22,878 nt of DNA, taken from the IMG/VR virus record IMGVR_UViG_3300031787_000891, positions 1 to 22,878 of that record, one strand, 5' to 3'. Every line of letters begins with the position of its first letter. The stretch's first letter is position 1. Made by a program: the position numbers and the translations under genes. This document shows, one piece after another, positions 5,519 to 22,878 of this stretch. The notes beneath the pieces were generated by a model that saw only the letters and a program-made list of their open reading frames with translations, was not told the DNA's origin and ran no database searches. The stretch is from a virus.

Positions 5519-6499
5519 TTAGGAGAAGTCTTGGCTGGTTACGCCGTAGAGTACGGTTCCGTTGGAAACAAAGGCGAGAACGTCAACGTCACCAGATCCG
5601 ACAGATAGAGTTGGAGCATTTCCTCCGGGGAACTTGTAGGCCGTGCTGAAGGAAAGAGTGTTGCTTCCAGCCGTTCCTTGGGTAACGACCAGCATATAAG
5701 TTGCGCCGTCAACCGGGTTGGTCGGGGTGCTTAGGGTTGAGTTGGTGGTCACTTCCAGCTTGGCAACCTGATTGGCGGATAAATCCCACGCAATCGTGCT
5801 GCCGGTGCTGATCGTGAGGCTGGTGGCGTTGAAGTTGTGGGTCGCAGTATATTCCTGCGCCGTGTTGACCACGGCCACACGGGTGCTTACAGTAGATGTA
5901 CCACTGCTGATAGTCACATCTCCAGAAAGCGTAGTTGTTAAATTTGCAATCGTCCCGGCAGTGCTGTTAATCGCACCGGAGAAAGTTCCAGTGGAGCTAT
6001 TCAGCAAACCGCTGAAGGTTCCGCCTGTGATGGTAGCAGTGCTGGAGGTAAGCGTCTGGATTGTTCCGTTGGTGATGTTGGCGGCAGTGGAAGTCGTGGT
6101 TCCAGCGGTAAGGTTCGGAATGGTTCCAATAGTAATGCTTGCCGTGCTTGAGGTAAGGTTCGGAATCGTGCCGGTCGTGATCGAGGCATTTGTTGAAACA
6201 AGCCGAGTGCCGGTGGATGTGCCGTAGGAAATATTAGTGAGATTGGCGTTGGTGTATGTGCTGATCGTCAGCGCATCCTCAAACAACTCGTTAACCGTAA
6301 CGGCACGAGGGGCATCTCCAGCGGTCAAGTCTGCATCGGCAATCAATAGCTCGTCGCCGGAGCCAACCGAAGTAAGGTTGGTCTGATCGGTGATCAACGC
6401 CTGATAGATGTCGGTTCCATCAATAAGGTTGTGCAACCCGGCGGCAGTCACCGTGCCGTTGGTGGCGAAGGTTTGGGAGCGATTAAATTTAATAGCCAT
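5519..6499 (-). CDS. Repeat-rich tail fibre-like protein
   Basis: This 326-residue protein is dominated by Thr, Ser, Ile and Asn. The N-terminal 90 residues are globular (MAIKFNRSQTFATNGTVTAA, then DELLIADADLTAGDAPRAVT). The middle, about 95-195, carries degenerate repeats of the form (A/S)-S-I-T-x-G-T-I-P-N-L-T-x-(S/G)-T, expected to build a beta-helix or a trimeric fibre shaft. The C-terminal 90 residues are a beta-rich head (VDGATYMLVVTQGTAGSN, FPGGNAPTLSVGSGDVDVLAF), similar to domains on other phage fibres. The motif NLTN(I)SYGT is shared with the neighbouring gene at 6501-7415, which suggests common ancestry or recombination. Fibre subunit or fibre-associated protein; the receptor is unknown. 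Confidence 0.75.
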   Translation of the reverse strand: MAIKFNRSQTFATNGTVTAAGLHNLIDGTDIYQALITDQTNLTSVGSGDELLIADADLTAGDAPRAVTVNELFEDALTISTYTNANLTNISYGTSTGTRLVSTNASITTGTIPNLTSSTASITIGTIPNLTAGTTTSTAANITNGTIQTLTSSTATITGGTFSGLLNSSTGTFSGAINSTAGTIANLTTTLSGDVTISSGTSTVSTRVAVVNTAQEYTATHNFNATSLTISTGSTIAWDLSANQVAKLEVTTNSTLSTPTNPVDGATYMLVVTQGTAGSNTLSFSTAYKFPGGNAPTLSVGSGDVDVLAFVSNGTVLYGVTSQDFS

Positions 6500-6500
6500 A

Positions 6501-7415
6501 TTAAGCCGTGAACCTCAGTGCGGTCATGTGCAGGGTTCCGGCGGGAACCGTGCCAGCAGTAGTGGTCGGGTTGGTGATGGAGTAGCGAACCACGTTGTTC
6601 GCTATGCAATGAAAGCCGATAATCAAGCCGGAAGAACCGGTCGCAGACCCGAGTGAGTTTAGAGTTCCAATAACAATATCGCTATTCTGCGCCCCGGTAA
6701 GGGCAACCGTTCCGTTGGTTGTTCCGCCAGCGTTGTAGGCTGAAACCGTTGAAAGCGTAAAAGCCGCAGTTCCGTATGAGGCATTTGTGAGGTTTGGTCC
6801 TGTTGCACCAATCTCAAGCGTGCCGACCGTGGCTGTGGTCGCAACAGACAGACCATTAAGCGTGGAGATGGTTCCGATGGTGGCCGTGTTTACGCTGATC
6901 GTGCCGAGGGTGTTCGTGCCGGTGGAGGCGGTGATGGTGGAACCAAACGTCACCGCGCCAAGCTGGAGCGGGATAGTGGCCGTGGAAATCGTGGCCGTGC
7001 TTGCGGATAGCGTTCCGATGATGGCAGTCCCGGTGGATGCCGTTATGTTGGAGCCAAAGGTGACTGCGCCAAGCTGGAGCGGGATCGTGGCCGTGCTGAT
7101 CGTAGCCGTGCTGATCGTGGCCGTGCTGATTGTAGCCGTGGAAATGGTCGCCGTGCTTGCGGAAAGGGTTCCGATAGTGGAGGTTCCGGTGGATGCGGTT
7201 AGGCTGGTTCCGAAGGTTACTAGACCAGTAAGAGTGCTTGCACCATCAACGCCGAAAGAACCAGTGCTTTGAACGCCGGTTGTTGATAGCTGGAGAGCGG
7301 TAGCAGTATCATTCCCGCCTGTAATGTTTTGCAGCGCAGGGCTAACGCTGCTTCCGGCTGTTTTAAGCAACTGCCCAAAGCTCTCGCTAATGTTTTGATT
7401 TGCTAAACTAGCCAT
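6501..7415 (-). CDS. Repeat-rich tail fibre-like protein with STATI repeats
   Basis: A 304-residue, low-complexity protein, very rich in Thr, Ser, Ala and Ile. After an N-terminal part (MASLANQNISESFGQLLK), it carries five tandem pentapeptides of the type S-T-A-T-I (one block near residues 87-110). The wider unit LGAVTFGS-x-ITASTGT-x-x-x-GT(L/I)S occurs about every 37 residues. At DNA level the pentapeptides are 15-base tandem repeats. The C-terminal 90 residues (IVIGTLNSLGSATGSSGLIIGFHC ... MTALRFTA, quoted in parts) form a beta-rich head. An excellent Shine-Dalgarno (AGGAGG, 4 bases upstream) marks the start. Probably a fibre shaft whose length could change by slippage or recombination between repeats. 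Confidence 0.75.
   Translation of the reverse strand: MASLANQNISESFGQLLKTAGSSVSPALQNITGGNDTATALQLSTTGVQSTGSFGVDGASTLTGLVTFGTSLTASTGTSTIGTLSASTATISTATISTATISTATISTATIPLQLGAVTFGSNITASTGTAIIGTLSASTATISTATIPLQLGAVTFGSTITASTGTNTLGTISVNTATIGTISTLNGLSVATTATVGTLEIGATGPNLTNASYGTAAFTLSTVSAYNAGGTTNGTVALTGAQNSDIVIGTLNSLGSATGSSGLIIGFHCIANNVVRYSITNPTTTAGTVPAGTLHMTALRFTA
6955..7158. repeat. Nested tandem repeats in fibre gene (15-bp and 111-bp periods)
   Basis: Five 15-base units lie end to end at 7084-7098, 7099-7113, 7114-7128, 7129-7143 and 7144-7158. The first three differ by a single base (atcgtRgccgtgctg) and the last two are more diverged. A longer unit repeats with a 111-base period: the 20-base word gcgccaagctggagcgggat occurs at 6955-6974 and again at 7066-7085. 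Both periods are multiples of three, so copy-number changes would keep the frame of the fibre gene. Confidence 0.9.
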
Positions 7416-16275: not shown

Positions 16276-17709
16276 TTAACCTCCTGCATCGAAGCCAGCC
16301 ATGACAGGATCGCTCGATTCCATCAGGGCTTGCAATGACCTCCACGTTGGCTTCTCGACGGGGAAAGTCAAATCAAACCGAAGATTACCACCATCTAAGC
16401 AGAGGGCAAGGGCATCCGCACGATCGGGTGATGCGATGCCACGGGACCGCATCGAGTCCTTGGATTCTACGCCTAGCTTGCCCTTGGAGTTGGTCGTGGT
16501 GCGGCGGCAAGTTAGCTGAGCAATCAGGTCGTCGTCCTCGGGCAGAATGATCTCGCACGCCTCGATCTTCTTGGACATCCCGTACCACATCTCGGCGGCG
16601 CGGTTAGTGTAGGCGTCGGGGTCGTATGGGGTGGAACCAAAGTTAACCCGGTTAACGTCCCAACCAGCCTCTGCCAAGGCGTCGCACATAACCATGCCAA
16701 GACCGCTGGCGTCGGCGTAGATGTTCTCAGGTTTCAGGCCGGCCTTCTTAAACTCTACTATAAACCGCCCAACGGCAGACATGGTATCCCTTTCGCGCCA
16801 AGCCACCATAGGTAGTACCTTGTTGCCGTCACGTACGCAAAGCACGTTGCAGTCACCGCCGGCCGCAAAATCGACCCCGGCCACCCGTTCCGCAGGCTTG
16901 TAGTCTGGCGGGCTATTCTGGCAGTTCTGGATCTGGGTAAGGCTAATGACAAGACTCTCGGCGCCTATGTCAACGAACTCGCCATAGATCATGGAGCGGG
17001 TCAGGGGATGCTTCTCGCCGTACCGCTGGATAACCTCGTCGATCTGGATTTGCGGTATATGCGGGCAGTCCTTGGCGGCTACGGCGTGGGTCTTCCACAT
17101 GTTCGCCTCCTTGGTAAACGCGCGGTAGAAGGCTCCGCTGGTACCCCCGGGGCTGGACGCAATAAGCAGGCGGGTGGGTTGGCAGCGACTGATGGCCTCG
17201 AACAATGGGTCAGCGACAGACTTTGCCTCGTCCACAACCATAAGCAGGGGGTGCTTGGTATGGTCTTCGGCGTGCCATCCTTCCGCACGCCCGGGGTCGG
17301 TTGCGGAATACCCAATAATTCTGCTTGTATCGCCCTGCGGGTCCGTGTATCGAATCTCTCCTGATGTTACGTCCCAACCACCACCCAAGCGGGCAACGTA
17401 GTTGCGAAGGCTCGGCCACAACTGCGATTCGACCTGCCGGAATACACCGGCGGTCGTAACCGAAATTGACCGCTTAAAACAAAAGCAATGCCAAAGCAAA
17501 ATAGACGCAATGACGGTGCTGGTCTTGCCGGAACCGTTGGCGGCACGCAAGGCTACACGGGATTGCTCCTTGGCGAGATCTCGCAGGACCGCACGCTGCC
17601 AATCGTAAAGCTTAATACCGATAACGTGCTGCGCGAAACCCTCAGGAGTTGCGATGTCCTGAAGAACTTCTTCTGGCGACTTACGCTTGCTCTTGGGCGG
17701 CTTCGCCAT
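16276..17709 (-). CDS. terL: Terminase large subunit
   Basis: A 477-residue packaging motor. Walker A is AANGSGKT (56-63), Walker B with catalytic Glu is LLMVVDEA (155-162), and motif III is LLIASSPGG (181-189). The nuclease domain shows the three acid sites: Asp280 in VAGVDFAAGGDCN, Asp333 in IYADASGLG, and Asp429/Asp432 in ASPDRADALAL. The domain order, an N-terminal ATPase then a C-terminal RNase H-like nuclease, is complete, and the length is normal. It overlaps the end of terS by 29 bases, so the two are surely co-translated. It hydrolyses ATP to drive DNA into the head through the portal and cuts the concatemer. Confidence 0.95.
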   Translation of the reverse strand: MAKPPKSKRKSPEEVLQDIATPEGFAQHVIGIKLYDWQRAVLRDLAKEQSRVALRAANGSGKTSTVIASILLWHCFCFKRSISVTTAGVFRQVESQLWPSLRNYVARLGGGWDVTSGEIRYTDPQGDTSRIIGYSATDPGRAEGWHAEDHTKHPLLMVVDEAKSVADPLFEAISRCQPTRLLIASSPGGTSGAFYRAFTKEANMWKTHAVAAKDCPHIPQIQIDEVIQRYGEKHPLTRSMIYGEFVDIGAESLVISLTQIQNCQNSPPDYKPAERVAGVDFAAGGDCNVLCVRDGNKVLPMVAWRERDTMSAVGRFIVEFKKAGLKPENIYADASGLGMVMCDALAEAGWDVNRVNFGSTPYDPDAYTNRAAEMWYGMSKKIEACEIILPEDDDLIAQLTCRRTTTNSKGKLGVESKDSMRSRGIASPDRADALALCLDGGNLRFDLTFPVEKPTWRSLQALMESSDPVMAGFDAGG

Positions 17710-21682: not shown

Positions 21683-21926
21683 TCAGTGCCTCCGCTAGTT
21701 TAGCTATCTTTGCCTTATGCCTATCAATAAACCCGTTTAGGTCTTCAAGGTCCGCAATCATCGCATCCATGTTAGCCTGATAAACCTCATGGCTACAGTT
21801 GGCAAGCACATCCCCGAAGAACCGATCCACCCTGCCAATAGTCTTGTGTAGTCTGGAGTTCTCCAGAATCAACAACTCAATGTAGTCCCAAGCTAACTCA
21901 ACCTTTGTTTTCACTGAAGCCACCAC
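21657..21926 (-). CDS. Hypothetical helical phage protein
   Basis: An 89-residue protein, almost all helix (VELAWDYIELLILENSRLHK, then ANMDAMIADLEDLNGFIDRH), suited to a coiled coil. The start is GTG at 21926, where AAGG stands about 6 bases upstream; later GTG codons at 21923 and 21914 could serve instead. It overlaps the 46-residue gene upstream by 29 bases. It has no motif I can name. Its place among small basic phage proteins suggests an early or middle gene. Confidence 0.6.
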   Translation of the reverse strand: MVASVKTKVELAWDYIELLILENSRLHKTIGRVDRFFGDVLANCSHEVYQANMDAMIADLEDLNGFIDRHKAKIAKLAEALNEPTKPTL

Positions 21927-22038
21927 GCTTGGCCTTCATCATGCGCCATACCTTGGGTTGGATCGTGGACTTCCGCTTGGACCGGGAGATCCCAAGACGC
22001 TTCCTGCGGTTCATGTTGGCGTATAGACCTTGTTTCAT
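21898..22038 (-). CDS. 46-residue basic phage protein (MKQGLYAN family)
   Basis: A short, strongly basic protein beginning MKQGLYANMNRRKRLGISRS and ending VWRMMKAKRGGFSENKG. The opening M-K-x-G-L-Y-A-N is the mark of a small conserved phage protein usually rich in Arg and Lys. It is the first gene of a four-gene minus-strand run (21282-22038), behind the HNH gene. It is probably a nucleic-acid-associated small protein, but the function is not established. Confidence 0.65.
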   Translation of the reverse strand: MKQGLYANMNRRKRLGISRSKRKSTIQPKVWRMMKAKRGGFSENKG

Positions 22039-22067
22039 TTGGCTAGTATAGCACGAACGCCTTGCCT

Positions 22068-22592
22068 CTAAAAGTATTTGTCGCTCTTTTGCAAATTTAC
22101 TTTTGCTGGAAGTATCTGAAGATTGTTTGGGGCATGCATTCCACCCTTTGATATTGGTTTTATGTGGTCAACATGAAACTGTATTCCAGTGCATTTGGTA
22201 ATTCTTTGAGATGACTCATAAATTGAGTTTATTGCAGATCGCTCAATCTTTGAATTTCTTGAGCGCTCCTTAAGTTTTTGCCTTCTTGCTGCCGCATACT
22301 CCACATATCTTGCAGAATTCTTGCTGTAATGCTTCCTAAACCATTCGCGCTTCTGCTTTCTTACAATCTCAATATTCTTTGCCTCCCATGCCTTCTTATG
22401 GGCGGCGTGCCTCCTTGGGTTTCTTTTCTGGCTTCTTGATGCAGCCCGCTTGCTTATTTCGCACATGTTTTTAAACGATTCTGGCGATGCCCATCTTTCG
22501 CTAACCCTCACAGATCCATCTTTCCGATTACGCCTTTCATAACCCCAAAATTTAAACCCGTCTTCCCGTTCCTCACCAAAAACTCTTTGCAT
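22068..22592 (-). CDS. HNH endonuclease (homing-type)
   Basis: A 174-residue protein beginning MQRVFGEEREDGFKFWGYER. The first 40 residues (WGYERRNRKDGSVRVSERWA) look like a small DNA-recognition beta element; residues 45-135 are basic helices (KRAASRSQKRNPRRHAAHKK). The HNH nuclease is C-terminal: FHVDHIKPISKGGMHAPNNL (139-158) with catalytic Asp142-His143, Asn157, and Asn166-Lys169 after it. I start at the ATG at 22592 because a sigma-70 promoter lies where the longer frame would begin. The gene is AT-rich against its neighbours, a sign of recent arrival. Freestanding HNH genes spread themselves between phages. Confidence 0.8.
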   Translation of the reverse strand: MQRVFGEEREDGFKFWGYERRNRKDGSVRVSERWASPESFKNMCEISKRAASRSQKRNPRRHAAHKKAWEAKNIEIVRKQKREWFRKHYSKNSARYVEYAAARRQKLKERSRNSKIERSAINSIYESSQRITKCTGIQFHVDHIKPISKGGMHAPNNLQILPAKVNLQKSDKYF

Positions 22593-22599
22593 CACTTGT

Positions 22600-22629
22600 A
22601 TTATATACAGCAAAAATACCACTAGTCAA
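22600..22629 (-). promoter_or_regulatory. Strong sigma-70-type promoter for the HNH gene
   Basis: On the minus strand, TTGACT (complement of 22624-22629) and TATAAT (complement of 22600-22605) are separated by 18 bases: five of six and six of six consensus bases. The HNH ATG begins 8 bases after the -10 box, so the transcript should start at or next to it. Confidence 0.75.
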
Positions 22630-22648
22630 ATTTTTGATAAATAAAAAC

Positions 22649-22878
22649 ACTTACGCAAGATTTGAGATGCTTCACACTCCTTAACCACCGCAGAAAATAT
22701 TTTGGACCGCCGCAGCACCACCGCACAAATACCCCTTATAAGGGGTATTTGTTGCGGTAGTTGCGGTATGCGGCAAAAAGCGAATTGTTGCGGTACCGCA
22801 GAAACATTTGTTGCGGTGGTCATAAATCTTGCGTAAGTCGCATTTCTGCAAAAACCATTATCAACGACTTACGAAAGC
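22649..22878. other. Palindrome and iteron array, possible origin or control site
   Basis: No convincing gene is seen in this stretch (a 65-codon minus-strand frame is judged spurious). It holds a perfect 28-base palindrome at 22725-22752 (arms ACAAATACCCCTTA / TAAGGGGTATTTGT). TTGCGGT words lie to its right (four: within 22751-22767 and at 22785 and 22811) and the inverse ACCGC or ACCACCGC to its left (22684-22725). Three copies of a box near CGACTTACGCAAG are at 22649-22663, 22824-22840 (inverted) and 22865-22877. The density and symmetry fit a protein-binding array such as a replication origin, an operator cluster or a recombination site. Confidence 0.6.

Follow-up and report, generated by a model that had tools for sequence, protein, structure and literature searches.

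An origin placed just downstream of the gene for an initiator-helicase is a known design, represented by SaPI Rep, SCCmec Cch2, Lactobacillus phage A2 and Streptococcus phage Sfi21. In SaPI Rep and SCCmec Cch2, the C-terminal domain of the helicase recognises repeats lying directly downstream of its own gene (PMC7581432). The record of phage A2 carries a repeat-rich rep_origin (32208-32717) directly after primase ORF35, and the repeat-rich origin of phage Sfi21 (34487-34784) directly follows primase orf382; a 302-bp element of Sfi21 has been described as an origin (PMC6356513). pRN1 needs, and Bordetella phage BIP-1 is predicted to have, a stem-loop immediately after its primase-helicase-winged-helix gene (PMC4234260). 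The same source describes the alpha protein of phage P4 as an initiator with primase, helicase and a winged helix that binds origin repeats and, in its discussion, the iterons and hairpins of the oriV of RSF1010 (IncQ).

The window analysed here (the whole stretch of 22,878 nucleotides) ends on its right side in a repeat block at the same position, relative to a replication gene, as the A2 and Sfi21 origins. Following the same logic as the layouts of A2, Sfi21, SaPI Rep, SCCmec Cch2 and pRN1, the block was read as a putative replication origin of an uncultured phage, just downstream of the initiator-helicase gene, with a probability of about 80%. The observations in support are its anatomy, position, conservation and single copy, the homology of the adjacent helicase, the co-variation of the iterons with the C-terminus of the encoded protein, and the annotation of origins at this place in two other phages, A2 and Sfi21.

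Anatomy of the repeat block

The features of the locus are as follows.

22644..22868, no strand: entire conserved non-coding block, putative origin; 84-96% identity to relatives matching over the full length; one place per genome
22649..22663, + strand: left arm of the outer 15-bp inverted repeat, ACTTACGCAAGATTT; includes box CTTACGCAAG at 22650-22659
22684..22725, - strand: left-pointing iterons, ACCGCA at 22687 and 22720, ACCGC at 22706
22725..22752, no strand: central hairpin; the palindrome plus flanking ACCGCA/TGCGGT words give a 17-bp stem with one bulged base
22752..22817, + strand: right-pointing iterons TTGCGGT, starting at 22752, 22761, 22788 and 22811
22795..22800, - strand: left-pointing ACCGCA on the right side; with its neighbour it makes GCGGTACCGC (about 22790-22799)
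22824..22838, - strand: right arm of the outer 15-bp inverted repeat, AAATCTTGCGTAAGT; includes box CTTGCGTAAG at 22828-22837
22868..22877, no strand: third CTTNCGYAAG-like box, CTTACGAAAG; overlaps the end of the initiator gene, including the stop and final codons
22869..22878, - strand: 3' end of the primase/RepA-type helicase gene with its stop, TTA (22869-22871), and the codons just before it; the rest lies past the contig end

The initial annotation had described a perfect 28-base palindrome (ACAAATACCCCTTA/TAAGGGGTATTTGT, 22725-22752) flanked by repeated TTGCGGT words and left-pointing ACC(A/G)CCGC words, and the position and perfection of the palindrome and the coordinates of the words were all confirmed. 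Outside the palindrome, ACCGC and GCGGT are indeed offset by one base, as was also noted there. Seven of the eight ACCGC/GCGGT words in the block extend to ACCGCA/TGCGGT, and these seven fall within 190 bp, against a window background of 0.17 per 190 bp on average and 2 at most; in 2000 dinucleotide shuffles of the block, a count of seven was never reached. The longest palindrome half-arm elsewhere in the window is 7 bp, and a half-arm of 14 occurred in 0/2000 dinucleotide shuffles of the block.

The description of the block as a near mirror holds only in part, as one left-pointing word lies on the right side (within GCGGTACCGC) and the nested symmetric pairs have different centres. The block initially delimited at 22684-22821 is real but belongs to a wider feature: a perfect 15-bp inverted repeat (22649-22663/22824-22838) surrounds the array, and the relatives conserve 235 bp from 22644. 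Three near-palindromic CTTNCGYAAG-like boxes (at 22650, 22828 and 22868) frame the array and the stop codon and are kept in most relatives. The third can base-pair with 12 of the 13 bases of 22828-22840. Besides these boxes, the strict pattern CTT[ACGT]CG[CT]AAG matches only once more in the window, and likewise once more in each of three long relatives. The boxes may be candidate sites for a second protein.

As single-stranded DNA, the block folds much more strongly than its shuffles (z -7.9), and regions downstream of the initiator gene in other family members also fold better than shuffles. Across eight distinct relatives, 98.5% of the cells in the hairpin stem are paired and 15 of 17 pairs are invariant, with one two-sided change. 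However, iterons in both orientations are enough by themselves to give folds of this kind. The ends of contigs L126, L152, L099 and L005, and the right end of the window, fall inside the palindrome or within about 150 bp of it, as if the hairpin breaks assembly.

Conservation and the neighbouring gene

Relatives were drawn from viral contigs by a palindrome search and by protein searches. Those spanning the block share 84-96% identity with it over the 235 bp, with a sharp left edge at 22644. In 20 distinct relatives, four forward and two to three reverse words were counted at nearly fixed spacing, and the words are thus not randomly spaced among relatives. Nine long records contain the array, each at a single site in its genome. 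Searching other genomes with the palindrome and array, as had been proposed, was productive among viral contigs only: querying phage records with the array at the DNA level gave no match longer than 21-26 bp, and a profile search of genome contigs with the primase alignment found no relative.

A small ORF runs across the array (22626-22823, - strand). Most relatives have a 1-nt deletion at the palindrome centre, and none of the frames is open throughout the set; the ORF was rejected, and the block is not a conserved translated gene. GC skew was likewise set aside as origin evidence: the cumulative skew does turn near the array in relatives, but at the point where the genes switch strand, and because it tracks gene orientation it is uninformative and provides no independent support.

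In every relative that extends far enough, a primase/RepA-type helicase gene is present and the array immediately follows its stop codon. A replication gene beyond the right edge, one of the checks suggested at the outset, is therefore present, and its adjacency supports the original suggestion of an initiator- or repressor-binding array or an origin. Contig L126, which overlaps the window exactly over the stretch 22869-22878, holds the whole gene, and the orthologue in relative L008 (5474-7402, - strand) has 642 codons. The 642-aa protein consists of a putative primase region of archaeo-eukaryotic type (AEP), a RepA-type helicase and a C-terminal predicted winged helix, and it matched phrog_2597 'DNA primase' (E 3e-52) and AAA_25 (E 2e-21). 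The best PDB match of a family profile of 20 members was the RSF1010 RepA helicase (1g8y, E 9e-12); a PDB search using the close alignment alone returned nothing. AAA_25 was found in 20/20 family members and PriCT_2 in 15/20.

The AEP assignment of the N-terminal part is supported weakly: the family label is strong, while the matches to AEP-type domains are weak (BT4734-like 0.003, PrimPol structure 0.17). The alignment contains the pattern ExD...SGxxSxHA...VDA, which we take to be that expected of archaeo-eukaryotic-type primases. At the other end, the last 73 residues are predicted to form an H-H-H-E-E winged helix (mean pLDDT 82, core about 90-95). Structural matches of this domain were winged helices of no specific family (Z up to 6.6), the best Foldseek E-value was 0.02, and no single winged-helix family is claimed. 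The full-length AlphaFold model was of low confidence (mean pLDDT 46), with the terminal domains alone usable.

On the other side of the block, in the region 22056-22643, an HNH-endonuclease ORF (22068-22622, - strand) is inserted before the next gene; close relatives lack this ORF and have a short unrelated stretch there instead. The HNH ORF has its own promoter-like site, TTGACT-18-TATAAT (11/12), which stops some 8 bases short of a possible ATG. A gene at 21898-22050 encodes a basic 46-aa protein (MKQGLYANMNRRKR...); only some 6 bases separate its extended -10 (TGCTATACT) from the ATG, suggesting a leaderless transcript. A paralogue of this gene is present elsewhere (35059-35205) in the genome G001 (IMGVR_UViG_3300032311_000111; L164, L165), which has a 123-bp direct terminal repeat, though classed as linear, and may be complete, at about 37.7 kb. 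The terminase of the window (16276-17709) is closest, among named phages, to those of Akkermansia phages (35-38% identity), a similarity that hints at Verrucomicrobiota hosts. Two adjacent minus-strand ORFs at 5519-7415 contain Thr/Ser-rich repeats (STATISTATI...) and probably encode structural proteins.

Iteron words and the C-terminal domain

If the winged helix reads the iterons, a different winged helix should go with different iterons at the same place, and this is what was found. The proteins of contigs L177 and L178 share 44-45% identity with that of L008, and the words TAGTGCA (L177) and ACCCTCA (L178) immediately follow the stop codon; both arrays have hairpins of their own. Between these two, the helicase is 94% identical, the C-terminal domain 35% identical, and the iterons are unrelated. 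The same was observed for Javan355 and MissE1 (helicase 95%, C-terminus 35%) and for Javan173 and Javan249 (helicase 93%, C-terminus 27%), again with unrelated iterons. Named phages of Streptococcus, Enterococcus, Faecalibacterium and Paenibacillus, at about 30% identity, carry different iteron families at the same place, including the following words directly after the gene.

AGGGACA: Javan355, 535, 17, 629
ATTTTTC: Javan74, 235
ACGAAAA: Javan173
AATAGCT: EFC-1
GCCGCAA: Vegas (Paenibacillus phage)

Immediately behind the gene, the highest 7-mer count exceeded that of every other tested window of the locus in 13 of the 18 members of the family. The other five (the window type, L178, Dulem35, FP_Lugh and Castelnaud) had no clear excess of an exact 7-mer, with degenerate repeats visible. 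The partial rank correlation between iteron and C-terminus, given the helicase, was 0.32 (Mantel, 3/2000 label permutations), and that between iteron and helicase, given the C-terminus, was -0.02. The former may be inflated, since the C-terminal domain adjoins the array and both can be exchanged by a single recombination. A direct argument against mere hitch-hiking comes only from the Faecalibacterium phages Lugh and Aster: the array flanks and spacers are kept, the iterons differ throughout (TCCG/CGGA versus CTGCA/TGCAG) as if replaced in concert between the conserved flanks, and the recognition-helix region is also changed. Each phage thus appears, from these comparisons, to have its own matched pair of iteron word and predicted DNA-reading C-terminal tail.

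Proposed replication role and comparison with known systems

In the proposed mechanism, the winged helix of the protein encoded by the neighbouring gene would bind the ACCGCA/TGCGGT iterons, and the protein would assemble into helicase rings flanking the central palindrome. The duplex might then melt at or beside the palindrome, the primase region could begin synthesis near the extruded hairpin, and forks would depart in both directions. The hairpin may have a role in priming, and this role is the least certain mechanistic step.

It is unlikely that the block is instead a transcriptional control region, in which the array would bind the initiator or another repressor and regulate the promoter of the small downstream genes, or the operon. 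Autoregulation is often a second function of iteron sites, and the extended -10 on the downstream side, before the 46-aa gene, is kept in close relatives. However, the promoter of L008-type relatives is situated past the outer arm and not within the array, the array follows the initiator gene also in phages with unrelated downstream genes, and the A2 and Sfi21 records annotate the same position as an origin. It is highly improbable that the block ends the long leftward operon as its terminator or forms the 3'-end structure of its mRNA, in spite of the strong fold, the TGTTTT that follows the outer arm on the minus strand in relatives, and a short match to the terminator consensus that both strands show at the centre of the palindrome. 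Terminator-like matches are near expectation (3, against a shuffled mean of 1.5), the palindrome itself has no proper U-tract, eight iterons and a 160-nt interior are not needed for a terminator, and the iteron words change with the C-terminus of the protein.

The large fold potential would also suit a structural or RNA-level element, such as a non-coding RNA gene or a recombination or packaging site, and this explanation is scarcely plausible. All Rfam matches were sub-threshold, microRNA-like and attributable to chance, and the compensatory change is minimal, at one pair; covariation amounting to one two-sided change is too weak to argue for an RNA. The terminase genes are more than 4 kb away, and iterons in both orientations fit protein binding better. 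The preferred interpretation is the putative origin.

This interpretation gives a concrete, testable putative origin and initiator for an uncultured phage group. The rule that follows, to look directly after the gene for an AEP/RepA-type primase-helicase, points to putative origins in many sequenced Firmicutes phages. We also lean slightly towards the broader view that the AEP-RepA-winged-helix proteins (phrog_2597 and relatives) might form a broad class of phage initiators in which one polypeptide combines the three IncQ replicon functions, and that they trade origin specificity by exchanging winged helix and iteron array as one cassette, including the co-ordinated in-place rewriting of all iterons. 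The natural swaps of winged helix and iterons are ready comparisons for how initiator specificity and all of its binding sites change together, and they bear on how related phages within one cell keep from sharing an origin. The open literature searched contained no earlier description of a single polypeptide that joins a winged helix and a primase region to a RepA-type helicase and goes with a matched, swappable array.

The RepA-type helicase of RSF1010 is homologous to that described here. RSF1010 uses three proteins (RepA, RepB' and RepC), whereas here the primase region, helicase and predicted DNA-binding domain form one polypeptide; the iterons here, unlike those of RSF1010, are short words in both orientations. 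The P4 alpha protein, likened from its published description, differs in having a Toprim-type primase. A stem-loop downstream of the replication gene is common to pRN1-type origins and to this block, but pRN1 and BIP-1 have an SF3 helicase, no iterons and no specific protein binding found, in contrast to the AAA_25/RepA-type helicase and iterons of this locus. The helicases of SaPI Rep and SCCmec Cch2 also differ, having no RepA-type domain, and Cch2 uses a separate polymerase-type primase. In A2 and Sfi21, the repeat words are unrelated to those here and there is no strong central palindrome. With SaPI Rep, A2 and Sfi21 the locus shares an array directly downstream of the initiator-helicase gene, a short word repeated above chance and, by prediction only, a C-terminal DNA-binding domain (the winged helix). 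As its helicase is of the AAA_25/RepA type, and those of A2 and Sfi21 are of the D5/Pox_D5 class, the block has the same design as the A2/Sfi21 replication module and is not a member of it.
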